In this document: positions 3,410 through 50,863 of the stretch, piece by piece | Position numbering within the stretch: the first letter of the stretch is position 1 | Layout: each line of letters starts with the position of its first letter | Source: a virus | IMG/VR virus record: IMGVR_UViG_3300050821_002513 | Coordinates: 1 to 62,473 of that record | Strand: one strand, 5' to 3' | DNA length: 62,473 nt | Position numbers and translations under genes: made by a program | Notes under the pieces: model-generated | Told to the model about the DNA's origin: nothing | The model's input: only the letters and a program-made list of their open reading frames with translations | The model's database searches: none

Positions 3410-4630
3410 ATGGCAATCGGTTACAAGGGATACAAACCGGCACCTCCAGAAGTCCGCAAAAAACTCCACGACGAATCGTTCAAACGTCATGGGCACCGGA
3501 TGAAGTCACTTCCACGGAATAACTTGCCTCCGGCTTTTGATTGCTCAACGGCTCCTGGCATGGTTGTTCTACCTGTTAACGACCAGGGAGCGTGCGGCGA
3601 CTGCTTCATGATTTCCGCCTTCGACGCATGCTCGATGGCGCTGGCCAAGGCTGGCGTTCTACCTGCCACGGAAGCGGCGAGACTATCCGGCCAGTGGGGA
3701 CTTGATTGTCATGGCGACTGGGGCGGCTGCAATGGCGGCGACGAAGCCCAGGTGATTGATTTTGTCAAGACGAACGGTGCTATCCTCACCAAAGACTACG
3801 GCCCTTACACGGCGTCGGCTGGCACTTGTCAGGATGTAAGTGGCAAAACCCTATACAAGATTCAGGATTGGGGCTATTGCACACCATCTCAGCAACAGGG
3901 TATCGCCAACACGGACGACATGAAGGCTGCCATGGTGCAATATGGTCCGTTAAGCGTTGCCTTCGACGCCTCCGAATGCAATGGCTACACCAATGGCACC
4001 ATGACCGGAAACGGTACATCGGTTGACCATGCTGTCATCTGCAAAGGATGGGATGACCTTCATGACAACGGTGATGGCACCATGGGAGCATTCAAGGGCA
4101 AGAACCAGTGGGGAGCCTGGGGAATTGACAACACTGGAGATTTCTGGATCAAGTACGGCGCCGATTCGTGGGGCACTGAAGCGATATGGATTCTTGGTGG
4201 TGCTGTTCCGCCTCCGCCACCTCCTCCAATTTGTCCTGCTGGCCAACATTGGGACACGACACTGTTAAAATGTGTGCCGAATGTTCCGCCTCCGGTTTGT
4301 CCACCGGGTACGCACCTCGATCCGGTAACTAATACTTGCGTTCCTGACGGTCCACCGCTTGGTTCCGTTGTTAACATTCCGGCTCTCGCCATTACTGTGT
4401 CCGGTATCACTCTGCCGCTGCGAACAGTTCCAACCACGGTTCCAGTGACGCCGATGACTCAACTTCACGGTGCGACTGTTATTCCGTGGGCCTTGATTTG
4501 GATGATTGTGCAACAAGGAATTAGTTGGGTTTGCAATAACGTCAGCAAGTTGCCGCCAACATGGCAGCCCATTGTCACAGAGATTTGCGGATTCATCCCG
4601 CACACGAAAAAACCGTGCGGCGGATGTTGA
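3410..4630 (+). CDS. papain-family (C1A-like) cysteine protease with Cys repeats and C-terminal hydrophobic region
   Basis: 406 aa. Catalytic elements appear in order: Gln59 of the oxyanion hole and Cys65 in DQGACGDCF (Asp replaces the usual Ser before Cys), the conserved CxxGGD-type segment at 106-111, His207 in VDHAV, and Asn232 in KNQWGAWG. There is no typical propeptide, only about 45 N-terminal residues. After the protease domain (to about 264) comes a poly-Pro linker, two copies of a CPxGxHxDxxxxxC motif (about 275-310), a low-complexity stretch and a hydrophobic segment at about 357-374. Strong AAAGGAG precedes the ATG. Possible roles are host-surface degradation, lysis or virion maturation. 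The chagasin gene directly upstream fits a protease-inhibitor pair. Confidence 0.85.
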   Translation: MAIGYKGYKPAPPEVRKKLHDESFKRHGHRMKSLPRNNLPPAFDCSTAPGMVVLPVNDQGACGDCFMISAFDACSMALAKAGVLPATEAARLSGQWGLDCHGDWGGCNGGDEAQVIDFVKTNGAILTKDYGPYTASAGTCQDVSGKTLYKIQDWGYCTPSQQQGIANTDDMKAAMVQYGPLSVAFDASECNGYTNGTMTGNGTSVDHAVICKGWDDLHDNGDGTMGAFKGKNQWGAWGIDNTGDFWIKYGADSWGTEAIWILGGAVPPPPPPPICPAGQHWDTTLLKCVPNVPPPVCPPGTHLDPVTNTCVPDGPPLGSVVNIPALAITVSGITLPLRTVPTTVPVTPMTQLHGATVIPWALIWMIVQQGISWVCNNVSKLPPTWQPIVTEICGFIPHTKKPCGGC

Positions 4631-26907: not shown

Positions 26908-28157
26908 TGCCTAATACCTTCTCGGCCCCGGCTGTTCCAGGCAGTGATGCCATCATAGCCGATCTGATTGATCCGCGTGAAATTCGCAAGAATCGCACTC
27001 GCTTCCGCCGCGAAGAAGTTCCCGAATTGGCCTATGCCAATAGTCTATACGTTCCTGCCGGTCTCTGGCCTGCTCGCGGATGGTTGCTCGTCTCCAGGTC
27101 GGATTACAATGAACTGGCGGCGAATAATGGTCTATATCAAACCTATTATCAATTGAACATCGACGAATTCGATGCCGCCGCTCCGGGACTCACGTTCAAT
27201 GACTTGGTGATTGTGCAAGCCAGATGTGTAACCACTGGCTTAATTTCCGATGCCAATGCGGTTTATCTTCTGGAAATAACGGACCAGCGAGGACTATTGT
27301 GGAATCGTTGGTTCAATTCAGTGACCGTCAATCAGTACAACGTCCTCTCGCCGGCCTATCCCGATCAATACTATTTTACCTCAACAGCGGCCGGTCCGCC
27401 GTGGGACTGGAACGGCATGATCGGCCAAGTCTGGAACCAGATAGGTGTCTTGGGTGCTTATCCAGGTCTACCGACAACGCCAGTGGGCACGCCACAGAAT
27501 TGGAGTTTGCCTGGCACGTCCAACTGGCGAGCATTGAATAGAATGCTGGACCATATCGGCTGCCGTGTTTCTGTCGATCTCAAGTCGCCGACTCAATATG
27601 GCATCGTGCACATGGGAGACACTGATTCAGTCTTCACAAATCTAGTATCTAAATACGCTGGGCGAGTCCAAGACGACATGGACTGGATTGATGTAGGGAG
27701 TGGCCGAGTGCCAGGAACAGTCACAGTACTATTTCACAGGAAGAACCAGGTTTACGGCACTGAGGAAACAATCAGGAACGATAATCTCCAGTGGCAAATG
27801 AATGCTATCTATCAAGTTGGTGTGGCAGCTCCAGCAATATTCAGTGCCGCTCAGGGCGAGCACTTTATATGGAGTGACTATCAAGTCAGGTATGACATTG
27901 ACAACAATCCTTTGGCTGCCGATGTGACGATTGCCGGTTTAATAGCGGCGGATGTAGTCAATCAGTTCTATGCAAGGATTTACTGGCAAACTCTTGGTTA
28001 TCTCAATCGAACATATGCCGGCATCATTCCTTTCACTGCCGGCTCGCAAGTCGATGGAGTCTGCTGGCGACAAGACTTCATGGCACCCATGGAAAGACAA
28101 GGGTGGATCACTCAGATTGTCAGAGGCGAACAGCCGCCATGGCCGGTGCTTAAATGA
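26907..28157 (+). CDS. virion protein, possibly baseplate or hub
   Basis: 416 aa, ATG overlapping the previous TGA. It has Trp/Tyr-rich globular segments (GLWPARGWLLVSRSD near 52-66 and a WQMNAIYQVG segment near 285) and no repeats. No family recognised. The overlap with the next, adhesin-like gene suggests a host-facing assembly. Confidence 0.5.
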   Translation: MPNTFSAPAVPGSDAIIADLIDPREIRKNRTRFRREEVPELAYANSLYVPAGLWPARGWLLVSRSDYNELAANNGLYQTYYQLNIDEFDAAAPGLTFNDLVIVQARCVTTGLISDANAVYLLEITDQRGLLWNRWFNSVTVNQYNVLSPAYPDQYYFTSTAAGPPWDWNGMIGQVWNQIGVLGAYPGLPTTPVGTPQNWSLPGTSNWRALNRMLDHIGCRVSVDLKSPTQYGIVHMGDTDSVFTNLVSKYAGRVQDDMDWIDVGSGRVPGTVTVLFHRKNQVYGTEETIRNDNLQWQMNAIYQVGVAAPAIFSAAQGEHFIWSDYQVRYDIDNNPLAADVTIAGLIAADVVNQFYARIYWQTLGYLNRTYAGIIPFTAGSQVDGVCWRQDFMAPMERQGWITQIVRGEQPPWPVLK

Positions 28158-28459
28158 ATTCCGAACCTATCCAACCGCCATTCTTCGGGCCGGAGCAACC
28201 TCTCTATCCAGAACTTCCACAGGTTTTGAGGGTAACTGGGTCGGCACTCGCAGGCACCAACGTTTATCCAGCATTCACCCAGCAATTTACAGGCAATATC
28301 CTCGCACCTTTCAGGGACCGCGAGCTAGCCTACGTGCTTGAACCGAACGGCGTCATTCTCAGACCAGCATTTTATGACTGCCGCCTTGTCGGTTCCTATC
28401 TTACTCTGCCGCTCTATGTGACAAGTTGCTGTGTTACTGGCTCGTCGTCATCGCGTTAA
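28154..28459 (+). CDS. adhesin head domain, serine-rich tail lost
   Basis: 101 aa. It is a clear paralogue of the N-terminus of the - strand gene at 49556-50863: PPFFGP near the start, R-[IV]-x-RVTGSA, a DRE segment, an EPN segment and SRLVGS/CRLVGS, then two or three Cys and Ser-rich residues. Here the frame stops right after GSSSSR, where the paralogue continues for over 300 Ser-rich residues. Truncation or loss of the repeat tail is the simplest reading. It is the last + strand protein gene and overlaps the convergent neighbour by 4 bases. Confidence 0.6.
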   Translation: MNSEPIQPPFFGPEQPLYPELPQVLRVTGSALAGTNVYPAFTQQFTGNILAPFRDRELAYVLEPNGVILRPAFYDCRLVGSYLTLPLYVTSCCVTGSSSSR

Positions 28460-29184
28460 GGTTTACCGCAGTCTGGACAGATGCCGGTGATGGGATTGGA
28501 CCAGTGATTCTGACAAAGCGGCTTATGTGTGACGGTGCCATCAATAGTGCAGCCTTCAAAACAAATCCGATATTCTCCGATGTCCGTTGCCAGTTCTGCA
28601 CCGTCTTTAGAAAGTTCAATATTCCACGCATATTCGGTTGTCGGCAATCTAAGACAACCTGATTTTTTGAATTCATCTGCCATTTTCGTGGCCATATCAC
28701 GAGCATGCCGACGCATGTCATTTGTTTGAGGAAGTGTTGGATGATAACCAGCAGTCAGAGCCGATCCAGAACAGTCATTTTTGTGTTTTTCACTAGGTTC
28801 AGCACCACACTCCCAGCACATACCGATGCCTTTACAGGTGCCATCACCATGAGGTTTTATCCGCCGCCATAAATCAACATCAATTCTAGTCTGGCATATG
28901 CCGCAAAGTTTGTGACATGTGAAGTTATGCGATTCTGTCAGTGCATTGAAAGTTGGTGCGTGAATTGTAACTGGCACGTCTCTGGAAACAGGACTGCCTG
29001 CCGAAATGGTGATAGGCGGTTCTGAAACAACCTTGGCACCTGCCTGCTCGAACAGCCAAAAGTAAATCGTCATCACTTCCGATTCGTGCTCCAGAATCAT
29101 CAGCTTGGCAGCCTCGCTGACGTTAATGATTTCCCATTCGTAGTCACAACCGGGAAACACAACTTTCTGACCTACCTTAAACAT
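28456..29184 (-). CDS. zinc-site protein with portal-like segments
   Basis: 242 aa, with CAGGAGAAAACCC before the ATG. A Cys/His-rich middle (about 90-138) holds CxxC and CWEC pairs, and the C-terminus has another CPDC. Residues 158-191 and 193-214 resemble portal residues 252-293 and 206-226 in reversed order (shared RRxARDMA, FK-x-x-G, LP-x-T and KDGAE, DxGxYR-x-C motifs). No known family explains this. It overlaps the next gene start by 8 bases. Confidence 0.5.
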   Translation of the reverse strand: MFKVGQKVVFPGCDYEWEIINVSEAAKLMILEHESEVMTIYFWLFEQAGAKVVSEPPITISAGSPVSRDVPVTIHAPTFNALTESHNFTCHKLCGICQTRIDVDLWRRIKPHGDGTCKGIGMCWECGAEPSEKHKNDCSGSALTAGYHPTLPQTNDMRRHARDMATKMADEFKKSGCLRLPTTEYAWNIELSKDGAELATDIGEYRICFEGCTIDGTVTHKPLCQNHWSNPITGICPDCGKP

Positions 29185-29590
29185 GGGTTTTCTCCTGAAT
29201 AGCTAACCGTGCTCGCTCCACTGCCTTGATGCCTTCTACCTGCATAACCACTGAATGGCCGGGAAACAGCTTGTAAACCGGCAACCGAAATTGCTCGGCC
29301 AATCTGATTTCCTCAGAGATGCCTACCGACTTCTCCCATCCGTCAATGCACAGGATAATCATTCCAGTGCAGAACCGCAAGATTATGCTGTCGTATACTC
29401 TCCAATACTCCCACTCTTTCGGCAGCGAGCATACGCAGGCTATCGGGTGAGTGTGGGCAATCGTTGAGAAGACATGGACGCCGCAATTCATGATCTGGCC
29501 GGCATAGCGGCAGGCGTCAACGAACCGCTTCTCCTGAATGGCTGGATCGGTGTGGCTGTATGGCGACGCCAGATAAAAGAGTCCGTCCAT
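29177..29590 (-). CDS. DUF1937/nucleoside 2-deoxyribosyltransferase-like protein
   Basis: 137 aa. The family marks are seen: ASPYSH near 8-13, a VFSTIAHTHPIA segment, W-x-x-W near 60, and a late DGWEKSVGISEEI segment with the conserved Ser-x-Gly and Glu. Relatives act on nucleosides or nucleotides in phage DNA metabolism. The stop overlaps the next gene by 8 bases. Confidence 0.75.
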   Translation of the reverse strand: MDGLFYLASPYSHTDPAIQEKRFVDACRYAGQIMNCGVHVFSTIAHTHPIACVCSLPKEWEYWRVYDSIILRFCTGMIILCIDGWEKSVGISEEIRLAEQFRLPVYKLFPGHSVVMQVEGIKAVERARLAIQEKTHV

Positions 29591-30009
29591 TAGAACACAA
29601 TCCCTTCCGCCTTCACCGGATTAACCGTCCACTTTCCAGGGCCAGTAAACGACGCCCAGGCCCATGGGAACCGCAAGGCCACGTCATATATCCCGAACGT
29701 GCCGGAAGCCTTCACAGGCAAAGCGAGCGGCCCCAGCGTCCATTCCGGCTCAAGAGTCATTGACAGGAAGATATTCCAATCCTTGAGCATGCCGCTGGCC
29801 GTTACTTTCTCAACCTGCCAGAGCGGCCCGAAGATTTTGTTGATGTTGCACACCGGGAAGGTGATCTGCCCATCAAAGTAGGCCGGCGGCGAGTTCATGG
29901 TTATCGCCATATCGGCTTGTATCTCCGAGGTCTGCCGTTGCGTCTTGGAGACGCGTGTGGTTAGCATGGCTGGGCAAGACACAGTTATTTTTCCGAGTGG
30001 TGTCATCAT
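29590..30009 (-). CDS. hypothetical phage protein
   Basis: 139 aa from the ATG at 30009, which overlaps the stop of the zinc-ribbon gene (ATGA). A longer reading from 30192 would cover that gene and is rejected. Beta-rich with several Trp/Pro segments in the C-terminal half. No family recognised. Confidence 0.5.
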   Translation of the reverse strand: MMTPLGKITVSCPAMLTTRVSKTQRQTSEIQADMAITMNSPPAYFDGQITFPVCNINKIFGPLWQVEKVTASGMLKDWNIFLSMTLEPEWTLGPLALPVKASGTFGIYDVALRFPWAWASFTGPGKWTVNPVKAEGIVF

Positions 30010-30209
30010 AACCTTTCGCTGTTCGGTGGTCTGCCTTTGCCGCCACGCTTCCACGGTTTGCAACCAGTCTTTTCCCGGCGGCGTAGTTTCTGTGCATCGC
30101 CGCACTTCTGACACCATGATTTGTATAGGCTTTTTCCCATGGCCTGACCGCACTGACGGCACTTGCCAGCCTCTTGCATCTTCTGTTGCCAAAGTCGCTG
30201 CCGACTCAT
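30006..30209 (-). CDS. small zinc-ribbon protein
   Basis: 67 aa with CRQCG (about 17-21) and WCQKCG (about 32-37) pairs, then a basic tail with RRREK and Gly-Arg-Pro-Pro. This is the shape of short phage DNA- or RNA-binding zinc proteins. It overlaps both neighbours by 4 bases. Confidence 0.6.
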   Translation of the reverse strand: MSRQRLWQQKMQEAGKCRQCGQAMGKSLYKSWCQKCGDAQKLRRREKTGCKPWKRGGKGRPPNSERL

Positions 30210-30817
30210 GACGCCTCCAAGATTTTAGTGGCGTGCAAGTGTGCGAATGGTCCTTCCGGTGCTATGCGAACGTCACTGACCAAATCCGAACCAGGAATGT
30301 ACTGATGGGCACACTCGCTGCCCTTAACCAAAATGTCCGGCTTCAACGCCTCAATTATGTCGTATGGCGTATCATCGTCGAACGAGACAACGTAATCGAC
30401 GCAGGCGAGAGCGGCCAGGATTTCCATCCTCTCGGCCAGTGGGTATCCTCCCGGTCCCTTGAGCCGGTAGGCCGATTCATCGCTGTTGACGCCGACAATC
30501 AGCAGGTCGCCTTGTTGCTTGGCCCAATCGAGCAGGAAGGCATGGCCAGCATGAAGGAGGCGGAAGCAACCGTTTGTGAAGACGACTCGGCTGTTATGTG
30601 TCTTGAACTGTTTGCGGGCTTCCAAGAGGTAATCCAGGCCCACAATCTTGTGCTGCTTGACAGTGGCGTTCATCATGGCCGTAATCCTCCGTGCAGTGTT
30701 AAGATCGAAAGAGCGGGCCGTAAAGTGGCTGTTGTGAGAATCCATGACGACGTACTCGAAGCATGGCTTGCCGACGAGGTCGAAATGGTGCCGGATTTTT
30801 TCGTAGTAGTATCGCAA
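30206..30817 (-). CDS. ADP-heptose-synthase-like nucleotidyltransferase (RfaE2/HldE C-domain)
   Basis: 203 aa. The nucleotidyltransferase core starts at about 76: FTNGCF at 80-85, HAGH at 89-92, then VNSDESAYRLKG at 110-121 and a late LVKGSE. The family transfers AMP to heptose-1-phosphate, giving ADP-heptose for LPS; other cytidylyltransferases share the fold. About 70 N-terminal residues have no counterpart in RfaE2. GT9-type transferases, the usual users of ADP-heptose, are encoded at 33.1-35.0 and 45.0-46.3 kb. Confidence 0.75.
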   Translation of the reverse strand: MRYYYEKIRHHFDLVGKPCFEYVVMDSHNSHFTARSFDLNTARRITAMMNATVKQHKIVGLDYLLEARKQFKTHNSRVVFTNGCFRLLHAGHAFLLDWAKQQGDLLIVGVNSDESAYRLKGPGGYPLAERMEILAALACVDYVVSFDDDTPYDIIEALKPDILVKGSECAHQYIPGSDLVSDVRIAPEGPFAHLHATKILEAS

Positions 30818-30820
30818 GTT

Positions 30821-31006
30821 TCACCCCGAAACATCGCCGCCGCCTGGATGGTCAACTTCCATTGTAAGATTCCATGGGAACGTTGTCCGCTTGCCACTTT
30901 CATATAAAGCCGGCTCCAGTTTGCCAGCCTTGTACGAGAAACGGATGGCGTAGTGTGGCAGGTCGGATTCTGGGATCTTGATGCCGTTAATGGTTAGAAT
31001 AATCAT
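30821..31006 (-). CDS. small hypothetical protein with a start inside a pentamer tract
   Basis: 61 aa from the ATG at 31006. A longer reading (to 31084) would translate the pentamer tract and is less likely. The start codon itself lies in the first CANNN unit, and there is no Shine-Dalgarno site, only the tract directly upstream. Sequence is soluble with a WNLTMEVD segment. Function unknown. Confidence 0.5.
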   Translation of the reverse strand: MIILTINGIKIPESDLPHYAIRFSYKAGKLEPALYESGKRTTFPWNLTMEVDHPGGGDVSG

Positions 31007-31088
31007 AGCATCACATCTCAATACACGGCAAAGCAAATCATCACACGGCAATACAGCACAACACACAACAGCACAGTGCACCACAAAA
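31004..31088 (+). repeat. pentamer tract T1: 17 units of CANNN
   Basis: CA recurs at 31004 and every 5 bases to 31084 without one break, while the three bases between vary freely. In mRNA sense of the - strand genes it reads NNNTG. It fills the whole gap between the ParB-like stop (31092) and the next start (31006). It is not a simple microsatellite, since the units differ. Confidence 0.9.
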
Positions 31089-31091
31089 ATG

Positions 31092-31820
31092 TCATAACGT
31101 TTTAATCAGTTTCTTTATCGTCTTCACCCTCGCCGCAATGTCAGGTTTGGCCATGTTGATGACACCAGCAGTCAGGATGCAAATGAATGAATCAAGGACA
31201 GATTCAACGTCATGACTTGTGACTGAATGCTGCGTCTGGAGAGCGGCGATGGCGTTCTTTGTGCCAACCGTTTCCTTGAGAGGAGCTTTCAGGAATCCGT
31301 AATGGCTGCCATTTACTTTGCGGTTAGCCGATCCCTCTGGAATCAATTCAGCGGTCTTGTGGTCAATTTTGACGCATCGGCTCACGACGATCTTCTCCAG
31401 AGATTCAACCTTCATCTTGAGAAGATCGGCAATGGTGTCAATCGCATAGCCGTCTTCTTTCATGCGGGTAGCAATCCATGCCTTGTCTTGATTGTCAAGT
31501 TGCCGTCCGTGTTCGCAATTCAGGATAACTGATCGTTCCATCCATTTCGATTGCGGGACTCGCTCAATAGTTGCCGGAATAGTTTCCAGTCCAGCTTTGA
31601 GATATGACCGCAATCGGTGAAGTCCATCAAGCAGGACAAATGGATATTTGAAGGCGGTCGCCTTGACGACAGTGATCGGAGGAAACACCGTTCCCTTTTC
31701 AAGAGCCTGAGTATATCGGAGAATGGTCATCCAGTCAGGATTACCATTGACTCGCGGATAGTACTTCTTATCGTACCCGATCTTGTCAATTTTCAATTCG
31801 GTGATCGTTTCAGTGGTCAT
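31092..31820 (-). CDS. ParB-like nuclease-domain protein
   Basis: 242 aa. The ParB/sulfiredoxin pattern is present: a PPITVVKA strand near 46-53, LLDGLHRLRSYLKAG near 61-75 (the DGxHR box), and a helical region with a likely helix-turn-helix near 125-145. Such proteins bind DNA, use CTP or ATP, or nick DNA. AAGGA precedes the ATG. Pentamer tracts lie on both sides of the gene, so they could be its binding arrays; that is a hypothesis. Confidence 0.8.
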   Translation of the reverse strand: MTTETITELKIDKIGYDKKYYPRVNGNPDWMTILRYTQALEKGTVFPPITVVKATAFKYPFVLLDGLHRLRSYLKAGLETIPATIERVPQSKWMERSVILNCEHGRQLDNQDKAWIATRMKEDGYAIDTIADLLKMKVESLEKIVVSRCVKIDHKTAELIPEGSANRKVNGSHYGFLKAPLKETVGTKNAIAALQTQHSVTSHDVESVLDSFICILTAGVINMAKPDIAARVKTIKKLIKTL

Positions 31821-31839
31821 GAAATGGATTCCTTAAAAT

Positions 31840-31919
31840 CAAAACATCGCAATACAATGCAGTTCACGTCAGGACAGCACATAGCAAGGCATTACACAAC
31901 ACCTCAACGCAATGCACCA
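31840..31919 (+). repeat. pentamer tract T2a: 16 units of CANNN
   Basis: CA recurs at 31840 and each 5 bases to 31915. It ends 12 bases upstream (in mRNA sense) of the AAGGA site of the ParB-like gene. A 42-base AT-mixed interruption separates it from T2b, which is in another phase. Confidence 0.9.
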
Positions 31920-31961
31920 AAACCATTAAATATTCAATTGCCGCCGCATTGTGGACCGAAA

Positions 31962-32021
31962 CATTACATTACAAAACAGCACAGGACACTGCATCACAAC
32001 ACAACGCAGCACACAACAAAT
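31962..32021 (+). repeat. pentamer tract T2b: 12 units of CANNN
   Basis: CA recurs at 31962 and each 5 bases to 32017. The last unit touches the stop codon of the gene at 32021-32596. Two or three degenerate units (31947-31961) may extend it. Confidence 0.9.
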
Positions 32022-32596
32022 TACACAATCTTGAAATCAGAAACAGCAAAGCGGCCCCACGGTCCTTTGAGTTGCGGCCGCCATGCTCCAACGCCGACGT
32101 TCTTTCCAGCCTCAGCGATGATCTTCTCCAACACCTGCGGATTGTATGTATCGCAATCGGCCAGAATTGGAATTGTGCATTTCCACTCTCTGAGAACCGG
32201 ACGGCCGATCTTGACCATTGGTCCTTTGATAGGCGGAATGCGAACCCAATCCGTGTAGGTTTCAAAGTCGCTGGTTCCGAGCGGAATGAGGTCCGTTTCG
32301 CAGGCGAGCGTCGGTGCGAGCACAGATTGAAACGTTCTCTTGCCCTTGTCCTTGAAACTACCGCCGGCCTTGCAGATGCTTCGGTAAAGCATGACCCATG
32401 GCAAAGCCATTTGTTTCTTGCCTTTGACGGTTACCCAATGTGCCCGCAGTTTGGCCTCTTCTTCGGGCGGTCGCGGCTTTCCTGGCTTGCCGTTGGTGGC
32501 ATCCAATTCCATGATTCCTTTACCCTGGAACATAATTCCAGGAGGAATGCCGGTAATCTCAACAGACACCTTGACTACGGACGTAGCAACAGCCAT
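32021..32596 (-). CDS. conserved phage protein of unknown function (Gly-rich C-terminal motif)
   Basis: 191 aa, start at ATG 32596 behind AAAGGAG; an upstream ATG in the same frame lies in a pentamer tract and is rejected. The pattern (FQGKGIMELD, then a Pro/Glu/Lys linker, LPWVMLYRSI, PVLREWKCTIPI and a closing GVGAWRPQLKGPWGRF) is found in many tailed phages and is usually unannotated. The glycine-rich end is reminiscent of RAMP/Cas7-like RNA-binding folds, which is speculation. Pentamer tracts flank it on both sides. Confidence 0.6.
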   Translation of the reverse strand: MAVATSVVKVSVEITGIPPGIMFQGKGIMELDATNGKPGKPRPPEEEAKLRAHWVTVKGKKQMALPWVMLYRSICKAGGSFKDKGKRTFQSVLAPTLACETDLIPLGTSDFETYTDWVRIPPIKGPMVKIGRPVLREWKCTIPILADCDTYNPQVLEKIIAEAGKNVGVGAWRPQLKGPWGRFAVSDFKIV

Positions 32597-32614
32597 TTCG
32601 TTCTCCTTTAAGAA

Positions 32615-32689
32615 CAATGCATTACAATACAAGGCAGTACAGAACATATCAGGGCACTACACTACAGTTCAGCACATCACAATACAATT
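32615..32689 (+). repeat. pentamer tract T3a: 15 units of CANNN
   Basis: CA recurs at 32615 and each 5 bases to 32685. In mRNA sense it ends a few bases before the AAAGGAG of the gene at 32596. Confidence 0.9.
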
Positions 32690-32718
32690 GATTCATTCCA
32701 CCGCCTTTCGTTAGCTTT

Positions 32719-32778
32719 CAGTACATCGCATAGCATGACAGATCAGCACAGAACAATTCACTGCAATTCATGGCAGCA
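32719..32778 (+). repeat. pentamer tract T3b: 12 units of CANNN
   Basis: CA recurs at 32719 and each 5 bases to 32774. Interruptions of 29 and 33 bases that contain CCGCC or CGCCGC separate it from T3a and T3c, and the three parts are in different phases. Confidence 0.9.
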
Positions 32779-32811
32779 ATTGATTCCAACTGGTTTCGCC
32801 GCTTAAAAGTT

Positions 32812-32911
32812 CAAAACATCACAGGACAAAACAGTACAGAGCAGAACATGGCACATCAAGTCATGGCACATCAAGTCACGGCACGCCATTACACAGCATG
32901 GCAGAACACCA
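32812..32911 (+). repeat. pentamer tract T3c: 20 units of CANNN
   Basis: CA recurs at 32812 and each 5 bases to 32907. It contains one true 15-base tandem duplication (32847-32861 and 32862-32876), which shows how units may be added. It ends at the stop codon of the small zinc gene at 32914. Confidence 0.9.
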
Positions 32912-32913
32912 AA

Positions 32914-33051
32914 TCACTTGGTATTTGCTTTCGCTCGCCTTCGTTCTGTCTGCCAATATGCCGATTTGCACTTCGGGCATATTCGCACCAGTTCTTGACG
33001 CGGGTGCCAAGTGTGACGGCAACGCTTGCATTCCAAGGTTGGAATTTTCAT
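32914..33051 (-). CDS. 45-aa zinc-ribbon protein
   Basis: Short gene not covered by a minimum-length search. It has CxxC near the N-terminus (CKRC), then His-x-Trp-His-Pro-Arg, CPKC and a basic YWQTERRRAK end. This is a frequent type of tiny phage zinc protein. It sits at the upstream end of the pentamer region, 52 bases after the GT9 stop. Confidence 0.6.
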   Translation of the reverse strand: MKIPTLECKRCRHTWHPRQELVRICPKCKSAYWQTERRRAKANTK

Positions 33052-33103
33052 GTTCTTATTGGTATCACTTGTGAGTAAATTTGTCAAGACGAAAAAACGA
33101 AAT

Positions 33104-35010
33104 TTATTTCAGCCAACCTTTTTCGTCGATCTGGCTGACGATATCGCTGACGGTTTCCCGTTTATAAATGCACGGAATGTAGTTTTCCCGATACTTCGGA
33201 TTGACCCAAGCTGTTGACATGTCTTCGGAAAAACTGATGAAACGTCTCGGATGAATCGAATCGTTTACTGCCCGCCACCAACTGACACAGCGACCGCCCA
33301 TGTAAGAAAGAACAATCATCAAGCCGCACTGATAGCTCACAAAAACCTTGGATTCCTTCAAAAAAGCAAACGTTTCGCCTATCTCGAATTTGCCAATCAA
33401 GTCAATCCAATCAGAAGTTTCTTTGCATTTGACATAACGTTCGTAATAGCTCCTATCATAGTCGGCCCCGACCAAAGCTATCTTGCATCCTCGCTCTTTG
33501 AATCGTTCTGCAAGTTCAACCCATTGACGCGGCTCCCAGACAAATTGTCTAGCGTGTCCCTCATCAACGTTCCCGGTTTCTGGACCTAAGTACAATGCCA
33601 CAAACTTATTAAGCTCTTTCCCTTTGTCGCGTCCCTTCTCGGTATCAGACCAATCAAAATCGTCAATTATGCTCCAATCTATCGGGTACTCAGGCATCCA
33701 GCTCTCTAGCCGTTCACCTTTTTCAAGAGGCGAGTTCGCACACAAAAAATAATGATTTCCCTGCAAACCGTCCTTTTCATAGCGATACCGTCCTTTCTCA
33801 TCGCTCACATTTTCCTTGTCTCTCAACACCGGCACATCCACAACCTCTGCCGACCTTATGAACGGAAACCTCTTCAAAAAATGCGTGCTCCGGTAGTCGA
33901 TTGGATTCGATGGATTGCCGCTCAGGATGATATCAATCGGTCCGCCGTTGTTCACTTCAGCATTGATTGCTTTAATCTTGTGCAAAACCCAAATCACATC
34001 GCCGATGCCGTTTGGTGTGACATACTTCATGGTTTCAATTTCTGGTTCGCAGCCCAGAAGTTTTCCTAGCCACTTCTGAACCTGGTAGATGAGATCGTAT
34101 TTGTTGTCTTGGTAAGTCGTGTATTGGTAGTACTTGTTGAAGCACTGAAAGATATCTTCTCTGTTGTCCAGAGGCGTCATGCCTTTGTGGTTTTCCGGGA
34201 TGAGGTGGAGCGTGTTCGGGGCCGGGTCGTGGAACTGCATCGGGTGGTGGCCGGTCCAGCAGATGAGCGTTGGCGTGTCGGTTGCACTGGCGATTTTGCC
34301 CGGTCCAGAATCGATGCCAATAAAAGCTTCTGAATTTTGGATAAGTGATGCAACAACTGAGGCGTCACCTGATCCGAATCCTCCCCATATATCTCCGTCT
34401 CCTGTTGGAGGGTTGAAGATTCTTTGGTTGTCCGGCAAATGCGAACGGTGATCCCAATCAAGGATGACCGGCACGCGACCTGCTTTGATAATAAGTTCGC
34501 ACACTGGTTTAATTTGCCAGTCATTGAGGTTCTTCCTGGTCGGTGAGGTGTTGCCATGATAATGCAAAATAACGCTGTTGTAAATGCACCGGCTACCATT
34601 GATTGCCTGCCGTTTGCAGCCGATGGACTCCAGATACTTGCAGGCCGTCATGTCTGATTCTGGCGAGCGATGACACTCGTAACGGGCCAGCGATTCGTCC
34701 CAATCAAGGTGGAACACTTCCTGCATGTTGTTGCTTATTTTTGAATTTGGCCGGTCCCGATAGTGGTTCATGTCCTCAAACCAGCCCAGCTGGTTAACTA
34801 TAGTGTAATTCTTGTCTTCCGGATCAATTTCACCGTCGTGAAAGACACGGTTGCACAATCCTATCAAGGCGGTGTGCTTTCCTCTGCCGCACACAACATC
34901 CACTGTGTCATTTGGTCGGTACTTTCGCAGGTGTTTGAGAACAACACTGAGCTGAACGACATCGCCATTCAGCCCAAGCCGTGCGGAAATCTTATCAGGA
35001 TTTTCGACAT
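33104..35010 (-). CDS. double GT9 (heptosyltransferase-like) protein with a frameshift near the start
   Basis: About 635 aa. Two GT9-like halves are seen: the first ends with a FIGIDSGPGKIASATDTPTL-type donor motif near residue 230-250, the second starts near 345 with NGIGDVIWVLHKIKA. The open frame can only start from a TTG at 35044, but an ATG at 35010 with AAGGGAGG upstream encodes MSKILIRFPHGLG, the expected GT9 opening, then meets TGA at 34969-34971. The main frame takes over there (a -1 shift). So the gene is frameshifted, or uses programmed shifting. It would move heptose or similar sugars. Confidence 0.65.
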
Positions 35011-35018
35011 GACTTGGT

Positions 35019-35210
35019 TTAACCTCCCTTCTGAAGAAGTTCAAATGCGTGAAGAGCGATGCTTAGGTTAATCTGACACATATCCCATGATTCTCTTTCG
35101 ACGGATTTTTTGAAAATTTCCATCAAATCAAGTGTCGATAGTCCGCCATCGTTTACTGCGGAAAAGAACTGGAATAAAGCTGCCATGGCATCTATTTGTG
35201 CAGTCTTCAA
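35019..35210 (-). CDS. small hypothetical protein
   Basis: 63 aa from a TTG at 35210 that overlaps the previous stop (TTGA) with AGGGAG 5 bases upstream; ATG 35186 is an alternative. Helical, with an ALHAFELLQKGG end. Its last codons overlap the GT9 start region, so translation may be coupled to the frameshifted gene. Confidence 0.45.
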   Translation of the reverse strand: MKTAQIDAMAALFQFFSAVNDGGLSTLDLMEIFKKSVERESWDMCQINLSIALHAFELLQKGG

Positions 35211-35419
35211 AACAACTCCCTGACAATCCGCCGTGCTCCCCACTTCTTCATCAACGCCTTGAACGCCAACTTTGGCCGCTTCCGCAGTTCCAGGCCTATC
35301 CGAATCCGTGCATTGATGACCTCATCCTGTTCCTTGTCGCCGGTTGTCTCGGCCAGGACAATGCCTGATGAATGCTTGAGTGCATTGGCCAGGTTTATGA
35401 GGTAGGTGGCATCGCTCAT
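35207..35419 (-). CDS. small helical phage protein
   Basis: 70 aa from ATG 35419, overlapping the methyltransferase stop (ATGA). It has an acidic middle (ETTGDKEQDE) and a basic helical end (RKRPKLAFKALMKKWG). No family recognised. Confidence 0.5.
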   Translation of the reverse strand: MSDATYLINLANALKHSSGIVLAETTGDKEQDEVINARIRIGLELRKRPKLAFKALMKKWGARRIVRELF

Positions 35420-36018
35420 TTTCGCTCCAGTAAAACCGCACAATCGTAAGCATGGATGTTCAGCGGGTGCATGAACGTCGAAAACAACTGCCGAGAAGTT
35501 TCTTTGTAGCCGGCTCTATCAATAACACCAGCGAATCTCTCTTCGCTTATCCACGAGTGATGATAGGCTGTCCCATCGTCAAGATCGGCCGGATGAGCCA
35601 AGAACTGCATACCTAGTACACTGTACCGTGCCGAACTAATGACAATATCGATAATCTCGTCAATCTCGTGCAAGCCAAAGTGCTTGATGAATCCCCAGGC
35701 CATGGACAGATCGTAGCCGGTGAATTTCGTGTCACGGATATCGCAGTTCATGAATATCCGCTCCTGGCACCGCTCGCGTGCTTTCTCCAGAAACCAGTTA
35801 TTCCTGTCCACGCCAACATAATCAATGTGCGGCGGCATACCGAAAGCCACATGACCGGTCGCACAACCATACTCCACTACTTTCATGATTTCGTAGGCTT
35901 CGATAATCGGGTTTACGAAGTCCAGAAAGTGCTTGTGTCCTACCTTTATCCATTCGTTCTCCTCATGAACGGCTAAGTCTCCTGTGTAGTACTCGCTGAT
36001 ATCGGCAAACTTTTTCAT
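35416..36018 (-). CDS. class I SAM-dependent methyltransferase
   Basis: 200 aa. Motif I VVEYGCATGHVAFGM (about 46-60), an acidic DYVGVDRN for the ribose (about 66-73) and a DLSMAWGFIKHF motif IV-like stretch are present. I use ATG 36018 with GGAG at good distance rather than the GTG at 36024. It lies in the glycosyltransferase block, so it may methylate a sugar or a protein; the substrate is unknown. Confidence 0.7.
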   Translation of the reverse strand: MKKFADISEYYTGDLAVHEENEWIKVGHKHFLDFVNPIIEAYEIMKVVEYGCATGHVAFGMPPHIDYVGVDRNNWFLEKARERCQERIFMNCDIRDTKFTGYDLSMAWGFIKHFGLHEIDEIIDIVISSARYSVLGMQFLAHPADLDDGTAYHHSWISEERFAGVIDRAGYKETSRQLFSTFMHPLNIHAYDCAVLLERK

Positions 36019-37109
36019 AGCCACTTCTCCCAGCCAGCCTCCATGTGAACAGGTACGGATCGTAAGTCTTTATTTATGTCGCGGCGGTTTTGCTCAGTAA
36101 TGAACCGGTTGATTATCTCAGGCTTGTTCGGTGCGTCCATGTGGTCATAACCAAAATCTCGGCGAAACAAATCGTCTGTGTCCTCGTGATGACGCGGGCC
36201 ACTCGCCAAGTTACACTCGCTGAATCCTTGAGACGGATAGTGGAAGAACGGCGGCGATTCGAGTCCCAGGCTCAAGTAGCCGTGCATTTGCATCCTGATT
36301 CCCAAATGTCCCTCGAAGAATGTGCAGCCGTCTCGGAATTTGCCGACATCGCGCCATGCCTTCATGTTGATAATCAGGAATGGTCCCGGATATCTCGCTT
36401 CAAAGCTTGTGCGATTAGCAGGCCAACTATCCCGGCCGGCCCACTTCTGAACAGCCTGTTTGACATCTTGAGGATGAAGTTTTTTCAGACTTTCCATATC
36501 GTTCATGATGACTTGTTTAGTGAGCAAGACATCTCGTTCCCAGTCTTTGTCAAATCCTCTTTCGATGTTATCAATGATACGTGGAATCAATCGTTTCCAG
36601 CACCAATAACCATCATTCCAGCCTGGCGAGAAATCGTAGAAGTAATGCCTGTCAATTCGGTGATTAAATACATCGCCTACCGATATCCCAGGCCACACGT
36701 CAGCCATGGCCAGATGCCAGTCTTGCAGAGATGAGCAGCCGCCCATGCCTACCGGAAATCCTCTCCAAGTTTTGCTGCCGATCTTGTCAATCCAGTCTAA
36801 AGCAGTTTCCAGCCAGCCTACACTTGGCCTTACGCCATCTTCGATAAGAAAGCACCATGGCGTATTCACATGGTCCAGAGCGTAATTCAGATTGTAACTG
36901 ATTCCCCACGTCGGTCCGGCGTTCTGAATGAATAACGCGTTGTGATGATCGGCAAGTTTTATCTGTTCCTCAACATTATGCGTGCCATCATCGCAGATAA
37001 TATGCGAGAATGGAATATTGGTGTACCGCTTCAAGTCGGCACAGAGAATTCCTAACCGACCAGTGCTGTTGCCGATAGTAGGCGTCACAATGGTAATTAG
37101 TTCATTCAT
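36015..37109 (-). CDS. family 2-type glycosyltransferase
   Basis: 364 aa. The N-terminus is a GT-A fold (LITIVTPTIGNSTGRLG, DDGTHN near 40, a GPTWGISYNLNYALDHV helix, and LIEDGVRP near 88-95 as the DxD-type metal site). The remaining ~200 residues are Trp-rich and may hold the acceptor site. It starts near the stop of the exostosin-like gene and belongs to the surface-sugar operon. Confidence 0.7.
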   Translation of the reverse strand: MNELITIVTPTIGNSTGRLGILCADLKRYTNIPFSHIICDDGTHNVEEQIKLADHHNALFIQNAGPTWGISYNLNYALDHVNTPWCFLIEDGVRPSVGWLETALDWIDKIGSKTWRGFPVGMGGCSSLQDWHLAMADVWPGISVGDVFNHRIDRHYFYDFSPGWNDGYWCWKRLIPRIIDNIERGFDKDWERDVLLTKQVIMNDMESLKKLHPQDVKQAVQKWAGRDSWPANRTSFEARYPGPFLIINMKAWRDVGKFRDGCTFFEGHLGIRMQMHGYLSLGLESPPFFHYPSQGFSECNLASGPRHHEDTDDLFRRDFGYDHMDAPNKPEIINRFITEQNRRDINKDLRSVPVHMEAGWEKWL

Positions 37110-49559: not shown

Positions 49560-50863
49560 TGACTTGATGAACTACTACTAACAGGAGTCCGCAGACAGTA
49601 CCAGCGGCGAATCGTCGGCGAAACACTCGACGATACCTGAGACGACTGACTGGACGCCAAGGACGATACTTGTTGCGACGGCGACGAAAACGGCGATGAC
49701 GGACTGCTCAGGCCAGAAGACACTAGCGAAGCCAACGGACTCGGTGAACTAGACAGGCTGGAAGACAATCCGCTTGACGGACTGGATATCTGACTGGACT
49801 GACTGGAAACCTGAGACGATGCCGACGATTTCACCGATTTAGATGACGACGATTGCGGCGATTGGCTCGGCGTGATCGGCACTTGGAGGCAGTAAAACTG
49901 TCGGGTGATAGCTGATGCTGATGACAGACTCTTGGAAGACAGCGAAGAGAATGCCGACACAGAAGAAACTTGCGACGGTGCGGCAGAAGATTGTACTGCC
50001 GACGACTGAGCAGCTGATGATTGTGCTGCCGATGACACCGGAATAGATGATGAAACAGGCGACGATGGAGATGCGGAAGATACTGACGAGACGCCAGAAG
50101 ACGAAGAAGATGATGACATCGCCGACGAGATTGACGGCGACTTACTGGACGACTTCAAACTGACCGACGAACTACTTTCTTCTGACGGTAGCGGTGGCAA
50201 AGGTATTTGCAGGCAATAGAACTGCCGCACGAGAACGCTGGACGATGAACTGCTCTTCGGTGAACTGGAGGATGACGAAACAAATGACGAGGAACTGGAC
50301 GGCCCCGAAGACAGAGACGACGGTGGAGAAGACACCTGAGACGATAGCGAACTGCTCCGAGATGATGAGGACGATAAACTTGATGCCGACGAAAATGATG
50401 ACGAAAACGACGATGATGAGCTGGACTTTGGTGTAGGCATTCTGAGGCAGAAAAACTGCCTTAAGATACCGCTCGATGAAGACGACGATGAACTTGAGGA
50501 CGATGACGAAGAGCTTCGCGGCGATGACGAAGATAGAGACGAAGAGGACGATACGGACGATGAAGAAGAGGACCGCGACGAACCAGGAGCACAACACGCC
50601 AGGCCGACAAAGAACAACGGAAGACCGGCAAATGAGCCTACCAGACGGGACCGATAAGTACCAGGTGCGACGGTTATGTTGTTTGGCTCAATGACATAGC
50701 AAGGCTCCCGGTCCCTGGGAACCAGAATATTGAACTGTTCGACGAAGGCTTGATAGACTGATGGAACACCAGCTGAACCGGTGACACGGACGATTTGGCG
50801 GAGCGGCGGGTATTGCGGAAGTGCTGGACCGAAGAACGGCGGTTGATTGTTGGTTGAGTCCAT
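49556..50863 (-). CDS. serine-rich adhesin with four R-x-[FW]-[FY]-C-L-x-x-P modules
   Basis: 435 aa. The first ~95 residues are the head domain shared with the + strand gene at 28154-28459. The rest alternates Ser-rich linkers with four near-identical modules (RQFFCLRMP, RQFYCLQIP, RQFYCLQVP, RRWYCLRTP). Cys and aromatic residues in a fixed frame suggest disulphide or ligand sites spaced by flexible stalks. Ser codons are mostly TCG/TCA/TCT, so the DNA is low complexity and recombination prone. The start overlaps the Dcm-like stop. Confidence 0.65.
   Translation of the reverse strand: MDSTNNQPPFFGPALPQYPPLRQIVRVTGSAGVPSVYQAFVEQFNILVPRDREPCYVIEPNNITVAPGTYRSRLVGSFAGLPLFFVGLACCAPGSSRSSSSSSVSSSSSLSSSSPRSSSSSSSSSSSSSSSGILRQFFCLRMPTPKSSSSSSFSSSFSSASSLSSSSSRSSSLSSQVSSPPSSLSSGPSSSSSFVSSSSSSPKSSSSSSVLVRQFYCLQIPLPPLPSEESSSSVSLKSSSKSPSISSAMSSSSSSSGVSSVSSASPSSPVSSSIPVSSAAQSSAAQSSAVQSSAAPSQVSSVSAFSSLSSKSLSSASAITRQFYCLQVPITPSQSPQSSSSKSVKSSASSQVSSQSSQISSPSSGLSSSLSSSPSPLASLVSSGLSSPSSPFSSPSQQVSSLASSQSSQVSSSVSPTIRRWYCLRTPVSSSSSSH

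Follow-up and report, generated by a model that had tools for sequence, protein, structure and literature searches.

In class 1 CRISPR systems, Cas7 subunits such as Csm3 form a filament on the guide RNA, in which non-paired positions recur periodically, and in Bacillus the TRAP protein recognizes RNA elements with a five-base period whose free letters are neutral. A third system, VIPR (Viral Interference Programmable Repeat), was introduced in a 2026 preprint (PMC13142463). As presented in its main text, the VIPR loci of phages combine a small RAMP protein, Vipr (about 20 kDa, with an RRM core and a glycine loop), an accessory gene, vap, whose product is often DNA-binding, and guide RNAs (vrRNAs). 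Each vrRNA consists of 9–16 pentamers with a fixed GGY triplet (“or a related consensus”) and two free letters (NN), and when DNA is bound one target base is skipped between dinucleotides (PMC13142463). The main text names seven VIPR types and presents, for type II (the clade of SUSP1), a structured tail that contains a pseudoknot (PMC13142463).

VIPR as a kind was described only in 2026, and the window (the whole stretch of DNA analyzed here, 62,473 nucleotides, which is a complete single virus record) very probably adds a divergent variant to it. We consider it very likely that the region at 31004–32911 is a VIPR locus comprising six vrRNAs, Vipr, and a ParB_N protein as a possible accessory. 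It is best filed as a divergent variant with a UGH or DCA triplet (depending on the strand that is read), tracts of up to 20 units, and no visible tail. Three lines of evidence carry this reading: units made of three constrained and two free letters; the identification of Vipr by PHROG, profile, and fold; and a linkage between tracts and Vipr that holds in both directions. Against it stand a triplet other than GGY, the lengths of two tracts out of six, which go beyond the 9–16 range, the lack of a conserved structured tail, the lack of a target match, an unusual orientation, and a very divergent Vipr.

The nearest point of comparison is phage SUSP1 (type II, KT454805), in which we assigned Vipr (28474–29061) and vap1 (28031–28471) by position and homology. 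Both loci lie in phage genomes and encode homologous Vipr proteins, with tracts of two-free-letter pentamers on both sides of vipr and a second protein gene directly downstream of it. They differ in the triplet (UGH or DCA in the window, GGY in SUSP1), in the window tracts of up to 20 units that lack a recognizable tail, and in the protein encoded where SUSP1 has vap1, which in the window is the ParB_N protein. With class 1 CRISPR the window shares the RAMP fold, according to a predicted model, but it has no identical repeats with spacers, and its fixed and variable guide letters are interleaved. With TRAP it shares the five-base period, whereas the protein fold differs.

Geometry and composition of the tracts

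The original prediction had described six tracts in which CA recurs every five bases, 92 units in all, and these were found again, uninterrupted: 17 units at 31004–31088, 16 at 31840–31919, 12 at 31962–32021, 15 at 32615–32689, 12 at 32719–32778, and 20 at 32812–32911. Four of the lengths (12, 12, 15, and 16) fall inside the published 9–16 range and two (17 and 20) lie above it. Each tract is a candidate vrRNA for which the minus strand is preferred. The first lies between the candidate vap and an open reading frame at 30821–31006, the third abuts the vipr stop codon, and the fourth is upstream of vipr; both minus-strand genes (32021–32596 and 31092–31820) are flanked by tracts. The linkers between tracts 4 and 5 (32690–32718) and between tracts 5 and 6 (32779–32811) have CAATTGATTC...TTTCG in common, a weak resemblance seen in two copies. 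Tract 6 (32812–32911) contains a three-unit direct repeat (NN = TG CA AG, twice), the sole within-tract repeat of this kind in the locus. The open reading frame at 30821–31006 does start inside tract 1, as had been noted, its ATG being the CAT of the first plus-strand (last minus-strand) unit, and no Shine-Dalgarno site is visible before it; no domain was found in its 61 aa product.

The regularity of the tracts is far above chance for the window. CA is the sole dinucleotide there with period-5 runs of eight or more units, and in 40 Markov-1 simulated windows, matched to the window in dinucleotide content, the longest run for any dinucleotide was at most six. No further CA-phased stretch was found on either strand elsewhere in the whole 62 kb.

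In the original prediction the unit was CA followed by three varying bases. The CA phase stands, but the three bases are not equally free. Across the 92 units, the entropies of positions 1 to 5 are 0, 0, 1.99, 1.99, and 1.51 bits; all 16 dinucleotides occur evenly at positions 3–4 (chi-square p = 0.76), and position 5 is A in 49 units, G in 26, T in 16, and C in one, in agreement with the earlier remark that C almost never directly precedes CA. Because C and A are invariant, position 5 is restricted, and positions 3–4 have maximal entropy, the unit is better described as one in which three letters are constrained and the other two are free. The constrained letters read DCA on the plus strand and UGH on the minus strand, where 75 of the 92 units (82%) carry UGY.

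These figures bear on the simplest alternative, a functionless degenerate pentamer satellite grown by slippage, which we regard as extremely improbable. Degenerate CANNN satellites do exist in bacterial genomes: a genome-wide scan of bacteria and archaea for mixed DCANN tracts returned 87 loci, none with Vipr. Slippage, however, would leave repeated neighbors, whereas here NN is uniform, just two 3-unit words recur among the 92 units, and CA is without any error; the strong linkage of tracts to Vipr, given below, also argues against a satellite.

An Rfam scan matched no RNA family and no hammerhead, and sigma-70 promoter and terminator scans gave chance-level hits only. Identical repeats of the CRISPR type (about 20–50 nt, with spacers) were not found, the units being 5 nt long with two free letters.

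The two proteins encoded between the tracts

The 191 aa product of 32021–32596 (minus strand) is very probably a Vipr-family, Cas7-like RAMP, as judged from its sequence and a predicted structure. When 20 window proteins were scanned against Pfam and PHROG, its single PHROG match was phrog_4652 (E 1.1e-7), a group that also takes in SUSP1 Vipr (E 1.4e-96) and that has one match in this record and none in 14 control genomes. A profile of the tract-linked family, built from homologues in tract-bearing loci with SUSP1 Vipr left out, scores SUSP1 Vipr at 113 bits (hhalign, 99.6%). The AlphaFold2 model reached pLDDT 86.2 and pTM 0.82 with a 48-sequence alignment (pLDDT 29 without one), and every one of the 50 best PDB matches listed for it is a Cas7-type RAMP complex, among them Csm3, type VII Cas7, and gRAMP (E 2e-5, TM about 0.5). 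Residues W138, G168, G170, R173, and G181 are invariant across 59 homologues including SUSP1, and GVGAWRPQLKGPWGRF, at the C terminus, corresponds to the glycine loop expected of a Vipr.

The window Vipr is nevertheless very divergent, with a terminal branch of 4.14, 17% identity to SUSP1 Vipr, and 25% to the nearest Vipr found, that of the IMG/VR phages L033 and L219. Searches by tblastn with the Vipr and ParB-like proteins against phages and plasmids gave weak matches or none, and no close relative was found in IMG/VR by Vipr or by capsid protein; this virus stands far from the phages known so far.

The original prediction had proposed a ring or filament protein binding UG every five bases, with TRAP as its precedent. 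Much of this has held up as probable, as far as sequence analysis goes: a functional phase, action at the level of RNA, a repeating subunit, and the product of 32021–32596 as that subunit. The identification with TRAP has not. A TRAP-like system, in which a ring protein bound to UG every five bases of leader RNAs controls downstream translation or termination and the remaining letters are neutral, now appears very unlikely. It would fit the period of five and the RNA-level reading, and tracts 2 and 4 immediately precede ribosome-binding sites, but tracts occur downstream of genes as well, the adjacent conserved protein is predicted to be a Cas7-like RAMP, and relatives encode tract arrays with hairpins of their own. 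In addition, maximal entropy is confined to two positions, as would be the case for a guide.

The second gene, at 31092–31820 (minus strand), encodes a 242 aa protein with a ParB_N domain (Pfam, E 2.8e-6; phrog_1033, E 2e-12). Going by its position, which is that of vap1 in SUSP1, it has roughly even prospects of being a DNA-binding accessory (vap). No homologue of it was found among the ORFs of other tract-bearing loci.

This gene lies between tracts, which would fit the other earlier suggestion, a DNA-level array used by the ParB-like protein (as centromere or condensation sites). We have abandoned this idea as highly improbable: the ORFs of the other tract loci, in which the RAMP recurs, include no homologue of the ParB-like protein, and the CANND units are directional, unlike the palindromic parS. 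Furthermore, the tracts of relatives are flanked by hairpins or long stems whose G-U pairs favor one sense, which speaks for RNA. Within the VIPR reading, it is rather unlikely that the window represents a tail-less UGY/NN system of up to 20 units, outside the types published in the main text of the preprint, in which a ParB-type, CTPase-like partner spreads from the guide-bound site. If that were true, such spreading could silence or condense a longer stretch of a rival genome.

Tracts, Vipr, and the guide strand in other phages

Had the tracts been confined to one assembly, the original prediction would have lost its footing, but dozens of IMG/VR phages carry tracts that adjoin a Vipr homologue. 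When IMG/VR was scanned for eleven CANNN units without regard to the encoded proteins, at least 119 loci came up; among those listed, the units are diverse in 48, and the other 71 consist of monotonous pentamer repeats. A Vipr homologue accompanies 26 of the 48 diverse loci and none of the 71 monotonous ones (Fisher 2e-13, among the matches listed), and in the diverse loci listed it usually lies within 60 bases of the tract. In the opposite direction, 56 loci were fetched by Vipr protein, using a query group derived from tract-bearing loci; strict tracts are present in 20 of them, always on the vipr strand, and in none after local shuffling.

Some of these loci deserve a word of their own. A 23-unit CANNN tract with 19 different units (L083, 5076–5190) has no Vipr in its 5.4 kb contig and is possibly a cut-off VIPR locus. 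L219 and L220 (arrays near 3539–3940) have identical Vipr proteins and flanks that are 99% identical, yet differ in the number and content of their tracts, one of which resembles a recombinant of two others; this is guide turnover between near-identical phages. In one Vipr group, 44 loci (e.g., L171, 3152–3583) have a gene for a protein of about 143 aa (phrog_15946) upstream of vipr, which is a candidate accessory gene.

The fixed triplet varies among these phages. One group has CAC/NN (L046, L062, L093, L110, and L114), a second GCA/NN (L031, L038, and L126), and a third A/G-CA/NN (L100, L163, and L175), while L033 has UGY/NN, as the window probably does too. In the group of L100 and L163, the tract forms the loop of a 20–25 bp stem, and these stems contain 36 G-U versus 18 A-C pairs when read in the CA sense, which supports a CA-sense RNA there. 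The stem sequences of L100, L163, L164, L175, and L177 vary from tract to tract with the pairing kept. L031 and L038 have a strong hairpin after most tracts in the CA sense. L033, in contrast, has the hairpin ACGAYAGACUUGAUCUGUCGU after most tracts in the vipr (UG) sense, with one ATT loop variant, and the hairpin variants stay paired (U-G) in the vipr sense only.

The window resembles the L033 and L219 phages in having UG tracts on the vipr strand that flank vipr; it differs from them in that theirs are mostly followed by a clear 3' hairpin and their downstream gene encodes another protein. Neither a conserved structured 3' tail nor a shared hairpin was found on either strand of the window, and stems of the L100/L163 type are absent around its tracts. 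As the structured tail is presented for the SUSP1 clade and not as defining all types, its absence counts against type II rather than against VIPR.

The guides are probably read from the minus strand, as UGY. The minus strand is favored by the 82% share of UGY, which is one base away from GGY, by an arrangement like that of L033, and by co-orientation with vipr; since no tail hairpin marks either strand of the window, we infer the guide strand from these features. Most relatives have CA on the vipr strand, so the orientation of the window, which has UG there as L033 does, is unusual. Plus-strand guides (DCA/NN), antisense to vipr, would be a sub-variant of the VIPR reading, their probability being contained in that of the latter, and we regard them as somewhat unlikely. 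They would match three other Vipr groups, in which CA lies on the same strand as vipr and hairpins or a G-U bias back a CA-sense RNA, but they would break the co-orientation with vipr that holds in SUSP1 and all other loci, and the L033 hairpins favor the UG sense.

Proposed mechanism, targets, and surroundings

If the window locus operates as VIPR does, each tract would give rise to one guide RNA (vrRNA) of 12–20 pentamers. Vipr subunits would line this RNA, one per pentamer, each holding the three constrained letters, and the two free letters of every unit would face outward and pair with double-stranded DNA that belongs to a rival phage or prophage. One target base would be skipped between paired dinucleotides, and binding would silence transcription of the target. 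The guide function, the skip rule, and silencing are carried over to this locus from the preprint (PMC13142463). By the published VIPR rule, the bases that separate the fixed letters would be the guide itself and not a neutral filler.

Exact 8-unit target scans with a one-base skip, using tracts 1, 2, and 6 against IMG/VR, gave chance-like matches only, with runs that stop at 8–9 units. Tract 1 had 24 matches, several reading AIRDFFR, which were rejected as lying in unrelated proteins. Mismatch-tolerant searches with skips of 0–3, run with the window tracts against their own record and the collected loci, gave no excess over shuffles, nor did 113 tracts of all loci at skips of 0–2. Since this phage is so distant from those already known, its rivals may be unsampled.

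It is worth considering what such loci have to offer. It has been suggested that VIPR is an ancestor-like relative of CRISPR, and the system has also been put forward as a minimal programmable DNA binder. The locus was spotted blind, from sequence, and lends independent support to the pairing of tracts with Vipr. The code evidently tolerates other fixed triplets (UGY in the window; RCA, GCA, and CAC in related phages), and a comparison of triplet with Vipr protein would reveal the residues that read the RNA. Once the skip rule has been checked for their type, such phages carry a readable list of their rivals.

Two further observations concern the rest of the window. The VIPR locus is surrounded by nucleotidyltransferase, glycosyltransferase, and methyltransferase genes (29177–37109). 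GA recurs with a period of 9 (10 units, 50052–50141) and of 6 (8 units, 50526–50573) within a single 435 aa ORF, and these stretches are probably coding repeats.
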